NCBI GenBank assembly: GCA_027460615.1
Contig: JAPZAO010000004.1
Span: 1-33,505 of the forward strand
Direction of reading: 5' to 3'
DNA length: 33,505 bases
DNA from: Candidatus Methanoperedens sp.
GTDB taxonomy: Archaea; Halobacteriota; Methanosarcinia; Methanosarcinales; Methanoperedenaceae
Made by a program: the position numbers and the translations under genes. Below, in pieces: positions 17,852-21,678 of the stretch. Under the pieces are notes generated by a model. It was not told where the DNA came from and searched no databases. It saw only the letters and a list, made by a program, of their open reading frames with translations. The stretch's first letter is position 1. The number at the start of each line of letters is the position of its first letter.

Positions 17852-18457
17852 TTACATAATACTTTTGTTTAAGAAATCAGTCGTTAATAATGCCTTAGCT
17901 CGAGTTTGTTTAACACTCGTTGAGCTAAGTTTATCCATCATGTCGCCTATCAACACAAACAAACCTGTCAGGATAAGGAAAGCCATTATAACCGAATCCG
18001 GCGACGGGGGTGTCATCCCGTAGGCAGCCATCAGATTTGCCCTCATTGCCATAATGCCACCCGCGCAGTGCGCAACCAGAAAACCGGTGATTGTCCAGTA
18101 TGTATTTGTTTGTCTGGATATAATCCATACCATGAGCAATATAATAAACCCAAAGCATATTTTAAAAGAGATAATACCCGGCGCACCAGATGATGCATAA
18201 AAAAACTGCAAAATCGGATTTGATTCCCTCATTACACCCGTCTTTTCAATCATGTAAGCTGCAGTTACACCATCTCCGACCCCGTAAGTCAAAAATGATA
18301 GTAAGAACATGAGACGTTGGAGGTTTGCTGTACTTATAAAATATTTTATTAACAACATGATGAAGTCAGATATGTAAACTGGTGTAGTCATTGATGTGCC
18401 ATCTGCTATATCACCAGTTAATGTTTTTTGAACTGTCATCCCGGGATTAGCTTTCAT
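17852..18457 (-). CDS. Predicted four-helix membrane protein
   Basis: A 201-aa protein with about four hydrophobic helices after a polar N-terminus of ~45 residues: LQRLMFLLSFLTYGVGDGVT, ISFKICFGFIILLMVWII, WTITGFLVAHCAGGIMAM and VIMAFLILTGLFVLIGDMM. The YGVGDGVTAAYMIEKTG - RESNP pattern in the first helix and loop resembles DUF5658-type archaeal membrane proteins, which is a loose match only. The last ~25 residues are basic and cytoplasmic. It lies downstream of the RHH protein on the same strand with a 21-bp gap, so it is probably co-transcribed with it. Function unknown. Confidence 0.75.
   Translation of the reverse strand: MKANPGMTVQKTLTGDIADGTSMTTPVYISDFIMLLIKYFISTANLQRLMFLLSFLTYGVGDGVTAAYMIEKTGVMRESNPILQFFYASSGAPGIISFKICFGFIILLMVWIISRQTNTYWTITGFLVAHCAGGIMAMRANLMAAYGMTPPSPDSVIMAFLILTGLFVLIGDMMDKLSSTSVKQTRAKALLTTDFLNKSIM
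17894..17929. repeat. Inverted repeat inside the 3' end of the 201-aa gene
   Basis: CTTAGCTC (17894-17901) and GAGCTAAG (17922-17929) are exact complements, with GAGT/ACTC able to extend the stem inward past a 3-base bulge. An imperfect 12-bp hairpin within coding sequence near the stop is unusual and may mark RNA processing or an old element end. Confidence 0.45.
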
Positions 18458-18478: not shown

Positions 18479-19513
18479 TCAGTCTAAATTTTCTGCCTGT
18501 CCCTCATTTGTCTGCACTACAGGACTCATCACAATCAGGTTTTCAGAGCACCGGGATTTATATTTGGTGCCGTTGGAGTTAAGCACATTCAAAAGAATTT
18601 TTTCTATTGCATTTATAGCACGCACATCCGTATTCCCATGATAGATATACAATGTATTCTCGTTCACATCGATTCTTTCCACAATCCCCATGAATTCATA
18701 CACAGATTTCATCGTCGGGATAAGTATTTCCAGCGGTATGTCACGTATCGGGATCTTATGAATTGCCTCTATAGGCGCTGTGAGATAACTTGGCGCCTCT
18801 TTTCCTATTAACAGTTCATTATAATAATTTTTTGGAATGGTTACCATGTTATAATTGGTCTGTTTATAGAGATTGACAATACATTTCCAGAATTCCTGCT
18901 TTTTCACAATTTCGCATGCTATATCGTCCATATCCCCAAAATAATTGACAAGAGATTGCCTGGCAAGATTCGTATTCGCCTGTTTCTTGAAACTAATCGT
19001 GATTTTGTTGGACATCTTTTTCAGTGATACGATTTCCTGCTTTTTATGCGTGATTAAATAAGAAGAAATCATTCCACCGAGAAATTCCATTTTATATATG
19101 CTGTTCCCGGAAAGAGTGACCTTCACATGCAATGGATGAACGTTATCATCGTAATCATCTATTTTTATAGTGGTCTGCCAGCTCACACCTGATGTCATAT
19201 CATCAAGATACCGCTCAAGGTCGGAGAGCATCACTATCTTTGCCGGGTCTATAATGCTGTTGAGATGTTCGGTATCTATCAGCCTGCCGCGGGCCTGTTT
19301 GATCAGCCAGTAAACAATTGTTTCTGTGAAGTTGTAGTCTGTTTTTAACCCGTCTATAAGTTTATTTACAGCTTCAGGATCTTTTGTCATTATATCTATA
19401 AGGTCTATTATTTCACGCATCGCAGCGCTGAAATTCCCATTATGTTTTCGGACAAGCGGCTCCAGTTTCTGGAGGTGTCCTGTTTCCAACGATATGTTTT
19501 TTCTTATAGACAT
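18479..19513 (-). CDS. Ribbon-helix-helix protein with large C-terminal domain
   Basis: A 344-aa protein. The first ~45 residues (MSIRKNISLETGHLQKLEPL ... NFSAAMREIIDLID) fit a ribbon-helix-helix DNA-binding unit: a short strand RKNISL followed by two helices. The remaining ~300 residues hold two alpha/beta blocks: 110-190 with strands VKVTLSG and ITISFKK, and 250-340 with ENTLYIYHG and ENLIVMSP. These could be a sensor or dimer domain, but I know no family for them. SD AAGGA precedes the ATG. An 8-bp inverted repeat made of TGTGAA motifs lies 55-135 bp upstream, and related motifs occur before other genes nearby, so it may be an autoregulator and local regulator. Confidence 0.75.
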   Translation of the reverse strand: MSIRKNISLETGHLQKLEPLVRKHNGNFSAAMREIIDLIDIMTKDPEAVNKLIDGLKTDYNFTETIVYWLIKQARGRLIDTEHLNSIIDPAKIVMLSDLERYLDDMTSGVSWQTTIKIDDYDDNVHPLHVKVTLSGNSIYKMEFLGGMISSYLITHKKQEIVSLKKMSNKITISFKKQANTNLARQSLVNYFGDMDDIACEIVKKQEFWKCIVNLYKQTNYNMVTIPKNYYNELLIGKEAPSYLTAPIEAIHKIPIRDIPLEILIPTMKSVYEFMGIVERIDVNENTLYIYHGNTDVRAINAIEKILLNVLNSNGTKYKSRCSENLIVMSPVVQTNEGQAENLD

Positions 19514-19568
19514 AAAAACGTCCTTTTAGCGCGCAAAACGTTCTATGGTTCACCTGAATATAAACGAA

Positions 19569-19646
19569 GTTGTGAAATTTGTGTGAATAGTGAAAAAATG
19601 AATAATGAAAACCATATTAAATCCATGTATCACACTTATTCACAAC
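19569..19646. promoter_or_regulatory. TGTGAA-type operator pair upstream of the RHH gene
   Basis: GTTGTGAA (19569-19576) and TTCACAAC (19639-19646) are exact complements. The left site reads TGTGAA-N4-GTGTGAATAG and the right one, on the other strand, TGTGAA-N3-GTGTGAT. They flank the divergent starts of the RHH gene and the 62-aa membrane protein. Confidence 0.55.
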
Positions 19647-19693
19647 AGTAGTTTTATCCTTGAGAAGCTGTTTGGTATAAGGAAGACTAAAAT

Positions 19694-19882
19694 ATGGTAT
19701 CCAAAAATATTACAATCCTTAGTTTTTTACTTCCTATTGCCATGACTTTAGGCACCAGCCTTGCAATATTTTTTTATGAATATTATTCATTGACAATGCT
19801 TATTCTGTATGCAGTCGGAGGATTGTTGCTCTGCATATATGTTTTAGTATTAAGGGCTGACCGGCACAGGTCTGTAAGGTAG
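19694..19882 (+). CDS. 62-aa two-helix membrane protein
   Basis: Two hydrophobic helices (ITILSFLLPIAMTLGTSLAI and LTMLILYAVGGLLLCIYVLVL) joined by a short FYEYYS loop, ending in a basic tail RADRHRSVR. A GGAAG site lies 9 bases before the ATG. It is divergent from the RHH gene and shares the motif-bearing 180-bp intergenic region. Function unknown; too small for a transporter alone, possibly a regulatory subunit. Confidence 0.6.
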   Translation: MVSKNITILSFLLPIAMTLGTSLAIFFYEYYSLTMLILYAVGGLLLCIYVLVLRADRHRSVR

Positions 19883-19923
19883 ATCCTGATTGAAACAGTC
19901 AAAATTATAATCCTGTGATGTTT

Positions 19924-20499
19924 TCAGACACCGGCAACAAGTTTTATTTTGGAGCCGCAATACGGGCATATGAGCCAGCTCGGCTCGATGTTTTTCTTAC
20001 AGAATGAACATGTCTTGGCAACTTCCACTTTCTTTATCAATTGGCTGCCGCAATATGAACAATTATTCCATTTGGGGTCTATAAGGTTCTGGCATTTATC
20101 ACAGAGCTTATATGTCGAAGCCCATTTCTGGCTCTTTAACTCAATCCCGCATTTGGTACAGAACCTGTAAGAAACGACTACGCGTTCCCCGCATGAAGTG
20201 CACATGGGAACATCGTGCATCAGCGTCGGATTGAGTTTCTTTTTAAGGTTCTCAAGGCACACGCCGGCTTCACGCTTTACCATTTCCTCAGGGTCTTTTT
20301 CTGCCTGCATCTCGATAATCCTGACAAGACTCTTGGTAAAATCAGGCATTTCCATATCCATTTTTGCAAAATCCACCTTATCCTGGTTTATCGAAGAAGA
20401 AATGTATTTCAGGGTCATGAAGCGCGTGGCGACTATTTTACTTTCAAGCTTTTCAAGCATGTGCCGCCGTTCTTCTTCGGATAATATCTTGCCGCCCAT
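19924..20499 (-). CDS. Triple zinc-ribbon protein
   Basis: A 191-aa protein. Residues 1-95 are helical and charged (EEERRHMLEKLESKI ...). Residues 100-181 carry six CxxC pairs: C100/C103, C114/C117, C133/C136, C147/C150, C164/C167 and C178/C181, giving three zinc ribbons in a row (double zinc-ribbon, DZR style). Such modules mediate protein or nucleic-acid contacts. It begins one base after the stop of the membrane gene at 20501-20821 and is the last gene of a three-gene operon. The combination with two small membrane proteins suggests a membrane-linked adaptor, but this is inference. Confidence 0.82.
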   Translation of the reverse strand: MGGKILSEEERRHMLEKLESKIVATRFMTLKYISSSINQDKVDFAKMDMEMPDFTKSLVRIIEMQAEKDPEEMVKREAGVCLENLKKKLNPTLMHDVPMCTSCGERVVVSYRFCTKCGIELKSQKWASTYKLCDKCQNLIDPKWNNCSYCGSQLIKKVEVAKTCSFCKKNIEPSWLICPYCGSKIKLVAGV

Positions 20500-20500
20500 A

Positions 20501-20821
20501 CTATTCCGTTATCTCCTCAATCGATATGGATAGTAGTATCGCGAACACAAAAAACAGAATCAGTGTCACCGATAATAAAGCCTCAAAAACCGGATAGAAC
20601 CCTTCAAAAATAATAGTTCCGATAGAGCCGACCGCCCTTGTAATACCAAGCAATATGAAAAGATTGGCCATTATTATGAAATTCTTCCACATCAGGTCCA
20701 TAGTCTTTAAGCCTTTCAGTTCTCTTGAAATCCCGACAAGTAAATGAAAGGAAAGAACGCTGCAAACCATTACTATCATGGATGCAATAGAATTCAGGAC
20801 AACAAAGAATTCTTCATTCAT
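20501..20821 (-). CDS. Small membrane protein (operon with zinc-ribbon protein)
   Basis: A 106-aa protein with three likely transmembrane helices: EFFVVLNSIASMIVMVCSVL, WKNFIIMANLFILLGITRAV and FEALLSVTLILFFVFAILL. A frame open further upstream exists, but the ATG at 20821 is preceded by a perfect AAGGAGGATT and overlaps the end of the upstream gene by 8 bases, so I use it. Both neighbours have the same strand and tight spacing. Layout resembles the second half of the 159-aa neighbour, so the two may be distant paralogues forming a heteromer. Function unknown. Confidence 0.72.
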   Translation of the reverse strand: MNEEFFVVLNSIASMIVMVCSVLSFHLLVGISRELKGLKTMDLMWKNFIIMANLFILLGITRAVGSIGTIIFEGFYPVFEALLSVTLILFFVFAILLSISIEEITE

Positions 20822-21293
20822 CTGAATCCTCCTTGCTGAACACACTCCACGGCTCATTACGCATCGCATTTATAATCTTCCGAAGCCCGAAAAGAAGTAT
20901 TACGAATACAAGAACCTCTATAACCGGGTCGAGAATCCTTACAATCGCATAATAAGTATTCAGGGCATCCGCTGATATGGCAATTTCATGCTCGGCTCTT
21001 TGCACTGTCAGGACATCCAGCAAAATACCAAAAGCCATTATGACATTCCAGAACACGAACAAAACCATGGAAATCGAAAGGTATTTCCAGGTCTCGGACC
21101 CTTTTTCCGCTCTCTGCCACAATCCTGCTGCCAGGTAAGTCGCACCGCACATGCCAAGAAGGAACGAAATTAACCTTACGATTGTCCCGCTGATGTCAAT
21201 CCCGTTACTTATGCCGTAGGCAGCCCGGGCGACATCCAAGTCAGCCAATAATAATAAAAAAACGCCAACTGTGGTTATTGTTCGTTTATTCAT
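20814..21293 (-). CDS. Membrane protein, four helices, first gene of a three-gene operon
   Basis: A 159-aa protein. The first helix (TTVGVFLLLLADLDVARA) may be a cleaved signal peptide; three further helices follow: IVRLISFLLGMCGATYLAAG, YLSISMVLFVFWNVIMAFGI and VIEVLVFVILLFGLRKI, with a short acidic C-terminus. The ATG has only a weak AAGGT site upstream; a TGTGAA-N4-GTGTGTAATG motif lies 73 bp before it. Co-transcribed with the next membrane gene (8-base overlap) and the triple zinc-ribbon gene. No family recognised. Confidence 0.75.
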   Translation of the reverse strand: MNKRTITTVGVFLLLLADLDVARAAYGISNGIDISGTIVRLISFLLGMCGATYLAAGLWQRAEKGSETWKYLSISMVLFVFWNVIMAFGILLDVLTVQRAEHEIAISADALNTYYAIVRILDPVIEVLVFVILLFGLRKIINAMRNEPWSVFSKEDSDE

Positions 21294-21365
21294 GATATCA
21301 AGAACCTTAATCGTTTTTATTCTGAATTTAAACTTAATGTTAATTAATCAGGATATAAACCAATT

Positions 21366-21385
21366 TGTGAAAAACGTGTGTAATG
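21366..21385. promoter_or_regulatory. TGTGAA-N4-GTGTGTAATG motif upstream of the membrane operon
   Basis: A copy of the motif found near the RHH gene and in front of the two-CW gene; the last ten bases, GTGTGTAATG, are identical to the copy at 21659-21678. It lies between the two-CW gene stop and the membrane operon start. Confidence 0.5.
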
Positions 21386-21405
21386 GCCGAAAACAGGCGC
21401 GAAGA

Positions 21406-21621
21406 TTACATCTTAACGGATTTATACCAATCGCAAACCATGCATGTGCCATGTTTCTGGGCATCTGTGCCCTGGACTTTGCCTCCGCAGAATGTTCCTG
21501 CAACCGTCCAGCAGTCCTTTCCATGATGTGGATATGCCGGGCATACGCCCATTTCTTTAACTTTTATTCCGCCAAGTTCTCTGCCGCATTTCTTAAGTTC
21601 CCAACAATTTTTCGGTGCCAT
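21406..21621 (-). CDS. Two-CW domain cysteine-rich protein
   Basis: A 71-aa protein with the two-CW pattern: NCWELKKCGRE near the N-terminus, GVCPAYPHHGKDCWTVAGTFCGGK in two parts in the middle, and CMVCDWYK at the end, with eight cysteines and the two Cys-Trp pairs that name the family. In bacteria and archaea the domain occurs alone or attached to sensor proteins and may bind metal or a redox cofactor; its role is not established. The ATG is preceded by a poor ribosome binding site. A 9-bp inverted repeat with TGTGAA arms sits directly upstream. Confidence 0.85.
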   Translation of the reverse strand: MAPKNCWELKKCGRELGGIKVKEMGVCPAYPHHGKDCWTVAGTFCGGKVQGTDAQKHGTCMVCDWYKSVKM

Positions 21622-21635
21622 ATGTATGAGGTTGT

Positions 21636-21678
21636 TTTCACATGTTTATTAAGTTACATGTGAAAGAGGTGTGTAATG
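21636..21678. promoter_or_regulatory. TGTGAA dyad upstream of the two-CW gene
   Basis: TTTCACATG (21636-21644) and CATGTGAAA (21657-21665) are perfect 9-bp complements, 12 bases apart. The right arm begins a TGTGAA-N4-GTGTGTAATG motif (21659-21678). A further TGTGAA lies at 21703-21708, next to the lysA start, so the region may control both divergent genes. Confidence 0.55.

Follow-up and report, generated by a model that had tools for sequence, protein, structure and literature searches.

A TTCACA Direct Repeat at a Fixed Position Before the Archaellum and Chemotaxis Genes of Methanoperedens, With One of Two Neighboring Ribbon-Helix-Helix Proteins as Its Probable Reader

The control of archaeal motility is understood in only a few lineages. 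In Methanococcus maripaludis and Pyrococcus furiosus, archaellation is under the positive control of the EarA regulon (PMC5512572, PMC10665913). Similar to the sites of EarA, those described in this study are short repeats at a fixed distance just 5' of the BRE/TATA box of the archaellum operon. The EarA sites, however, have only been reported ahead of the first arl gene, and their consensus, A(C/G)(C/G)TACA(T/C), does not fit the logo derived here from 89 sites. Moreover, the repeat of this study has a TTCACA core and an 11-bp period, precedes many arl, che and signaling genes and has a ribbon-helix-helix (RHH) protein as its candidate binder, whereas EarA is a winged-helix protein. In Haloferax volcanii, the motility regulon is that of CsmR, a small winged-helix protein whose targets rise in the deletion strain (PMC13286277). 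Likewise, this archaeal regulon covers motility as a whole and has its motif beside the TATA box, but the CsmR motif is a semi-palindrome, TATCA-N4-TGATA, and not a direct repeat. Dimers of RHH regulators, such as Arc and omega/ParB of pSM19035, bind arrays of short repeats (PMC9499535). Different from the candidates of this study, Arc and omega are small proteins of bacteria, phages or plasmids, lack a large C-terminal domain and are not known to regulate motility. In the literature searched, neither a motility regulon nor an archaellum promoter element was found to have been published for Methanoperedens (ANME-2d). These uncultured methane oxidizers express archaellin in electrogenic growth and manganese reduction (PMC10874420).

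The window, which is the whole stretch of 33,505 nucleotides that was analyzed, is contig C4 of an archaeal MAG of Candidatus Methanoperedens with 2.39 Mb and 208 contigs. Three near-identical intergenic sites that a sequence-only reading had placed in the window were all found there, of which those at 21366–21384 and 21659–21677 matched its pattern exactly and that at 19571–19589 matched with two mismatches. Read on the minus strand, the motif is (T/A)TCACAC-N4-TTCACAA, a direct repeat whose period is 11 bp, and at each window site six bases lie between the second TTCACA and TTTATA. A composite pattern, TTCACA-N5-TTCACA-N6-TTTATA on the minus strand, was preferred over the original one. With up to two mismatches, the composite occurred three times in the window, while 0.003 occurrences were expected. 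The original pattern occurred twice with up to one mismatch (0.007 expected) and had no exact match in 300 shuffles; with up to three mismatches it was at the chance level (5 observed, 3.7 expected).

Site 1 (19559–19587, minus strand, TATA box included) matches the composite without mismatch and lies 5' of the RHH gene; 13 relatives have conserved it ahead of the RHH start. At a fixed offset 5 bp past its TTTATA stands an inverted half-site (19550–19553) that reads GTGA on the minus strand and is optional. Site 2 (TACACA-N5-TTCACA-N6-TTTATA, one mismatch; 21354–21382, minus strand) is 5' of the m2-m1-ZnR operon, and site 3 (TACACA-N5-TTCACA-N6-TTAATA, two mismatches; 21647–21675, minus strand) is 5' of the two-CW gene. 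The 9-bp dyad TTTCACATG/CATGTGAAA that had been noted at the third site is present, and its left arm includes an inverted half-site (21638–21641, minus strand) located past the TATA box. The targets of all three sites are minus-strand genes; lysA (21718, plus strand) was rejected as a target because the site points away from it. The inverted partner that had been proposed near 19629–19645 does exist as a plus-strand copy of the motif (ATCACA-N4-TTCACA with TTTTAT, 19629–19657), but it is weaker, has a 10-bp instead of an 11-bp repeat and faces the divergent m3 gene. A similar sequence was found in the near relatives L055–L058.

The RHH gene (18479–19513, minus strand) encodes the candidate regulator, a polypeptide of 344 amino acid residues with an N-terminal ribbon-helix-helix and an uncharacterized alpha/beta C-terminal domain. 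The gene m0 (17852–18457, minus strand), which encodes a membrane protein of 201 residues (DUF5658), follows 21 bp after RHH and is possibly cotranscribed with it. Also on the minus strand are m2 (20814–21293), which is the first gene of its operon, and m1 (20501–20869), both for small membrane proteins, as well as ZnR (19924–20499), which encodes 191 residues with three zinc ribbons and lies inside the archaellum island in relatives. The m2 homologs in L283 and L288 have their own site. The two-CW domain protein (21406–21621, minus strand) has 71 residues and matches NF045718 with 73.8 bits at a cut-off of 35; in relatives, its homolog is found amid chemoreceptor and island genes. The m3 gene (19694–19882, plus strand) encodes a membrane protein of 62 residues, and its homolog adjoins arlJ in the RHH-lacking genomes G009, G017, and G021, which suggests a direct archaellum role for m3. 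Homologs of m3 beside arlJ were seen in L195, L196, and L201 of RHH-lacking genomes.

Throughout the 2.39-Mb genome, the composite was found at 13 sites with up to two mismatches, while its reversed control was found at none. Sites with three mismatches, which are on C28, C52, C112, C138, and C169, were left out of this count. Twelve of the 13 sites precede archaellum, chemotaxis, signaling, small-membrane or window genes. In addition to the three sites of the window, they are located before the archaellin-ArlF-G-H-I operon (C12), before cheB, which follows arlI-arlJ (C66), before a KaiC-like ATPase, a kinase/response-regulator operon and two chemoreceptor-CheW pairs (C107), before a histidine kinase (C68) and before two small membrane proteins (C93 and C203). 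ArlG, ArlH, and ArlJ scored above curated cut-offs, while archaellin, ArlF, MCP, CheW, and CheB were assigned via family matches. The 13th site, C82:11476 (two mismatches), to which no motility gene is tied, was counted as chance. The regulon is almost certainly real, and the motif is a control site at one fixed position before the archaellum and chemotaxis genes of Methanoperedens.

Among 52 perfect repeats, which came from loci picked without the composite pattern, 39 had TTTATA exactly at +6 and only one had it elsewhere among the 35 positions scanned; on the opposite side of these repeats, four TTTATA were scattered. The logo of the 89 sites has the consensus (T/A)TCACAC and TTCACAA, with near-invariant CACA cores and a T-rich spacer followed by the TATA box. 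After removal of near-duplicates, 75 sites remained, of which 13 have an inverted GTGA exactly 5 bp past TTTATA, at a distance of 22 bp to the proximal half-site. At scattered offsets near the 75 sites, four further GTGA occurred. The inverted half-site occurs in both the RHH and the CW promoters, in the latter as part of the 9-bp dyad.

In M. nitroreducens and relatives (genomes G001, G002, G012, and G028), the genes of the window are part of one contiguous archaellum-chemotaxis island. Its order is cheB, cheY, a site, arlJ-I-H-G-F-B, a site, a response regulator gene, RHH2, RHH, a site, m3, ZnR, (m1, m2), a site, (CW), chemoreceptors, CheW, KaiC, and ArlC/D/E, of which m1, m2, m3 or CW are without an ORF call in some of the maps and the far end is taken from G001. 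In such islands, a site precedes the arl operon, cheY/cheB, RHH, m2-m1-ZnR, CW, MCP and KaiC genes. RHH, arl and RHH2 form one cluster in M. nitroreducens and others. In the closer relatives of the window, the CW-m2-m1-ZnR-m3-RHH block is apart from arl, and in several of them lysA is alongside. Given that the genes of the window sit inside the archaellum-chemotaxis island in relatives, the regulon is a motility regulon and not an unconnected new system. The earlier proposal of one undescribed system is thus retained as a single regulon but not as a separate system of RHH, membrane and zinc-ribbon proteins, as the regulon is the archaellum/chemotaxis set and, in relatives, the small genes lie within its island. 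By way of the cis-element, several orphan proteins (small membrane, zinc-ribbon and two-CW) can be assigned to motility. Outside the islands, 20 further site regions were inspected in four genomes, and 17 of them had a nearby same-strand ORF, mostly for histidine kinases, response regulators, MCPs, archaellin, KaiC, m2 or related small membrane proteins. A small number of the sites outside the islands precede unrelated ORFs or are without an ORF call. Small membrane proteins with an R-x-FLN stretch carry the site at L072:5388-5720, L276, L281, and L287. In G003 (L192:8162-10788), three ORFs lie between arlF and arlG, at least one of which is transposase-like by eye.

RHH orthologs with identities of at least 70% were identified in 21 of the 34 Methanoperedenaceae genomes. 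The sites per genome at up to two mismatches ranged from 7 to 24 in these 21 genomes and from 0 to 4 in the other 13, a co-occurrence that covers one family whose genomes are not phylogenetically independent. The seven RHH-lacking genomes that are at least 95% complete had 0–2 sites each. No site was found at the arl operon of the RHH-lacking genomes G009, G016, G017, G021, and G022, in which this operon is divergent and, in the case of G021, the contig stops before the archaellin gene. RHH2, a shorter RHH paralog that adjoins the archaellum operon and lies at C12:5506-6183 in the genome of the window, was found in 23 of the 34 genomes. Two of them, G008 and G033 (87% and 67% complete), have sites and RHH2 with no RHH ortholog detected; their RHH2 is beside a response regulator, CheY, and CheB, and a site precedes a chemoreceptor. 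The distribution of CheB did not track that of RHH cleanly. In the rest of the order, the genomes had 0–4 sites each, except for G101 of another family, whose 11 matches were discarded because all of them were tandem-repeat arrays. The motif is imitated there by tandem arrays of roughly 23 bp with TTTCACA, which are on contigs C41, C125, C128, and C158.

The reader of the motif is probably one of the two neighboring RHH proteins, RHH or RHH2. RHH had been named as the natural binder, and an RHH-family candidate is supported by the site in the RHH promoter of all 13 relatives inspected, by the linkage to arl in several species and by the co-occurrence with the motif. RHH itself is not singled out over RHH2. 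RHH2, which 23 of the 34 genomes have and which G008 and G033 keep together with sites, fits almost as well as RHH. Moreover, their predicted DNA-contacting strand, RKN(I/V)S (RKNIS in RHH), is common to both, so that the two are not separable by sequence; it is also common to many other paralogs of the same genomes. The defined cis-element, along with the two candidates for its regulator, opens the question of motility control to direct tests in vitro.

In the mechanism that we propose, the motility regulon of Methanoperedenaceae would have the motif as its upstream activating sequence. The two direct half-sites of the motif, (T/A)TCACA, which are 11 bp or one helical turn apart, lie on the same face of the DNA exactly 6 bp 5' of the TATA box, and some promoters have a third, inverted half-site on the far side of the TATA box, 22 bp further on. 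RHH and/or RHH2 would bind the repeat as two dimers, which would contact TFB/TBP at the BRE/TATA box, and upon a signal this contact would turn on the archaellum, chemoreceptor and signaling genes. The regulator would also control its own gene. Of this picture, the regulon with its gene content, the fixed geometry, the conserved self-site and the co-occurrence were observed, whereas the binder, the sign and the signal are inferred. The half-sites of Arc are about 11 bp apart, and the heptads of omega have a TCAC core. The position and spacing of the repeat suggest activation near the BRE/TATA box, by analogy with the unrelated winged-helix protein EarA.

Three other explanations were considered. 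A chance or generic promoter feature, such as an extended BRE, with no dedicated regulon would agree with the background level of the original pattern at three mismatches in the window, but this explanation is already refuted by the 13 sites against none for the reversed control, by the near-exclusive link to motility and signaling genes and by the arl operons of the RHH-lacking genomes inspected, which are without the motif. The site could also be a repressor operator, on which RHH dimers at the repeats and the inverted half-site would block TBP/TFB until a signal frees them. The best-known RHH proteins are repressors, and the downstream inverted half-site is present in 13 of the 75 dereplicated sites. 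It is missing from most sites, however, and the repeat lies entirely 5' of the BRE/TATA box at a single fixed spacing, which is the layout of archaeal activators such as EarA and Ptr2; repression is thus rather improbable.

Finally, the regulon may be real and its binder a non-RHH protein, either a winged-helix EarA homolog or a FilR1-like protein, with RHH and RHH2 as mere members of the regulon. We regard this as unlikely, though less so than repression. EarA and CsmR, both known regulators of the archaellum, are of the winged-helix type, EarA sites are short repeated motifs just 5' of the BRE, and a FilR1-like wHTH gene is found amid the chemoreceptor genes of G002 and G028. However, among the inspected islands only these two showed a FilR1-like gene and none showed a gene of the EarA type, the published EarA consensus is unlike TTCACAC, and nearly all site-bearing genomes have RHH or RHH2. 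The best explanation, which we hold with reasonable but limited confidence, is that an RHH-family protein (RHH, RHH2 or both) binds the motif as an activator. More tentatively, and at slightly worse than even chances, the master activator of the archaellum and chemotaxis genes in Methanoperedenaceae might be a member of the RHH family whose C-terminal domain is large, either RHH or RHH2 or the two in a mixed complex. Such an activator would belong to a regulator class unrelated to EarA and CsmR and act on an 11-bp half-site lattice straddling the TATA box.

Relatives of the window RHH protein that are 95–97% identical to it are in Candidatus Methanoperedens MAGs, which makes the organism an ANME-2d methanotroph. 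No Pfam or NCBIfam matches to this protein were found, and a PDB sequence search gave no match. Comparison by hhalign of 16 N-termini of the family with five RHH sequences, NikR and CopG among them, gave an RHH profile match with a probability of 94% and an E-value of 9.7e-8, and one RHH paralog matches PF01402 below the cut-off (E 0.028). The C-terminal 240 residues are uncharacterized, and their AlphaFold model is poor, with a mean pLDDT of 56. With low confidence, the model shows two alpha-beta-beta-alpha-beta-beta repeats in residues 96–335. The top Foldseek matches of the C-terminal domain were often LAGLIDADG endonucleases and were not significant (E of at least 0.0046, TM about 0.2). 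The RHH protein family is large in Methanoperedenaceae, with several paralogs per genome in classes of about 350 and 480–540 residues, and members were also present in two further genomes of the order.
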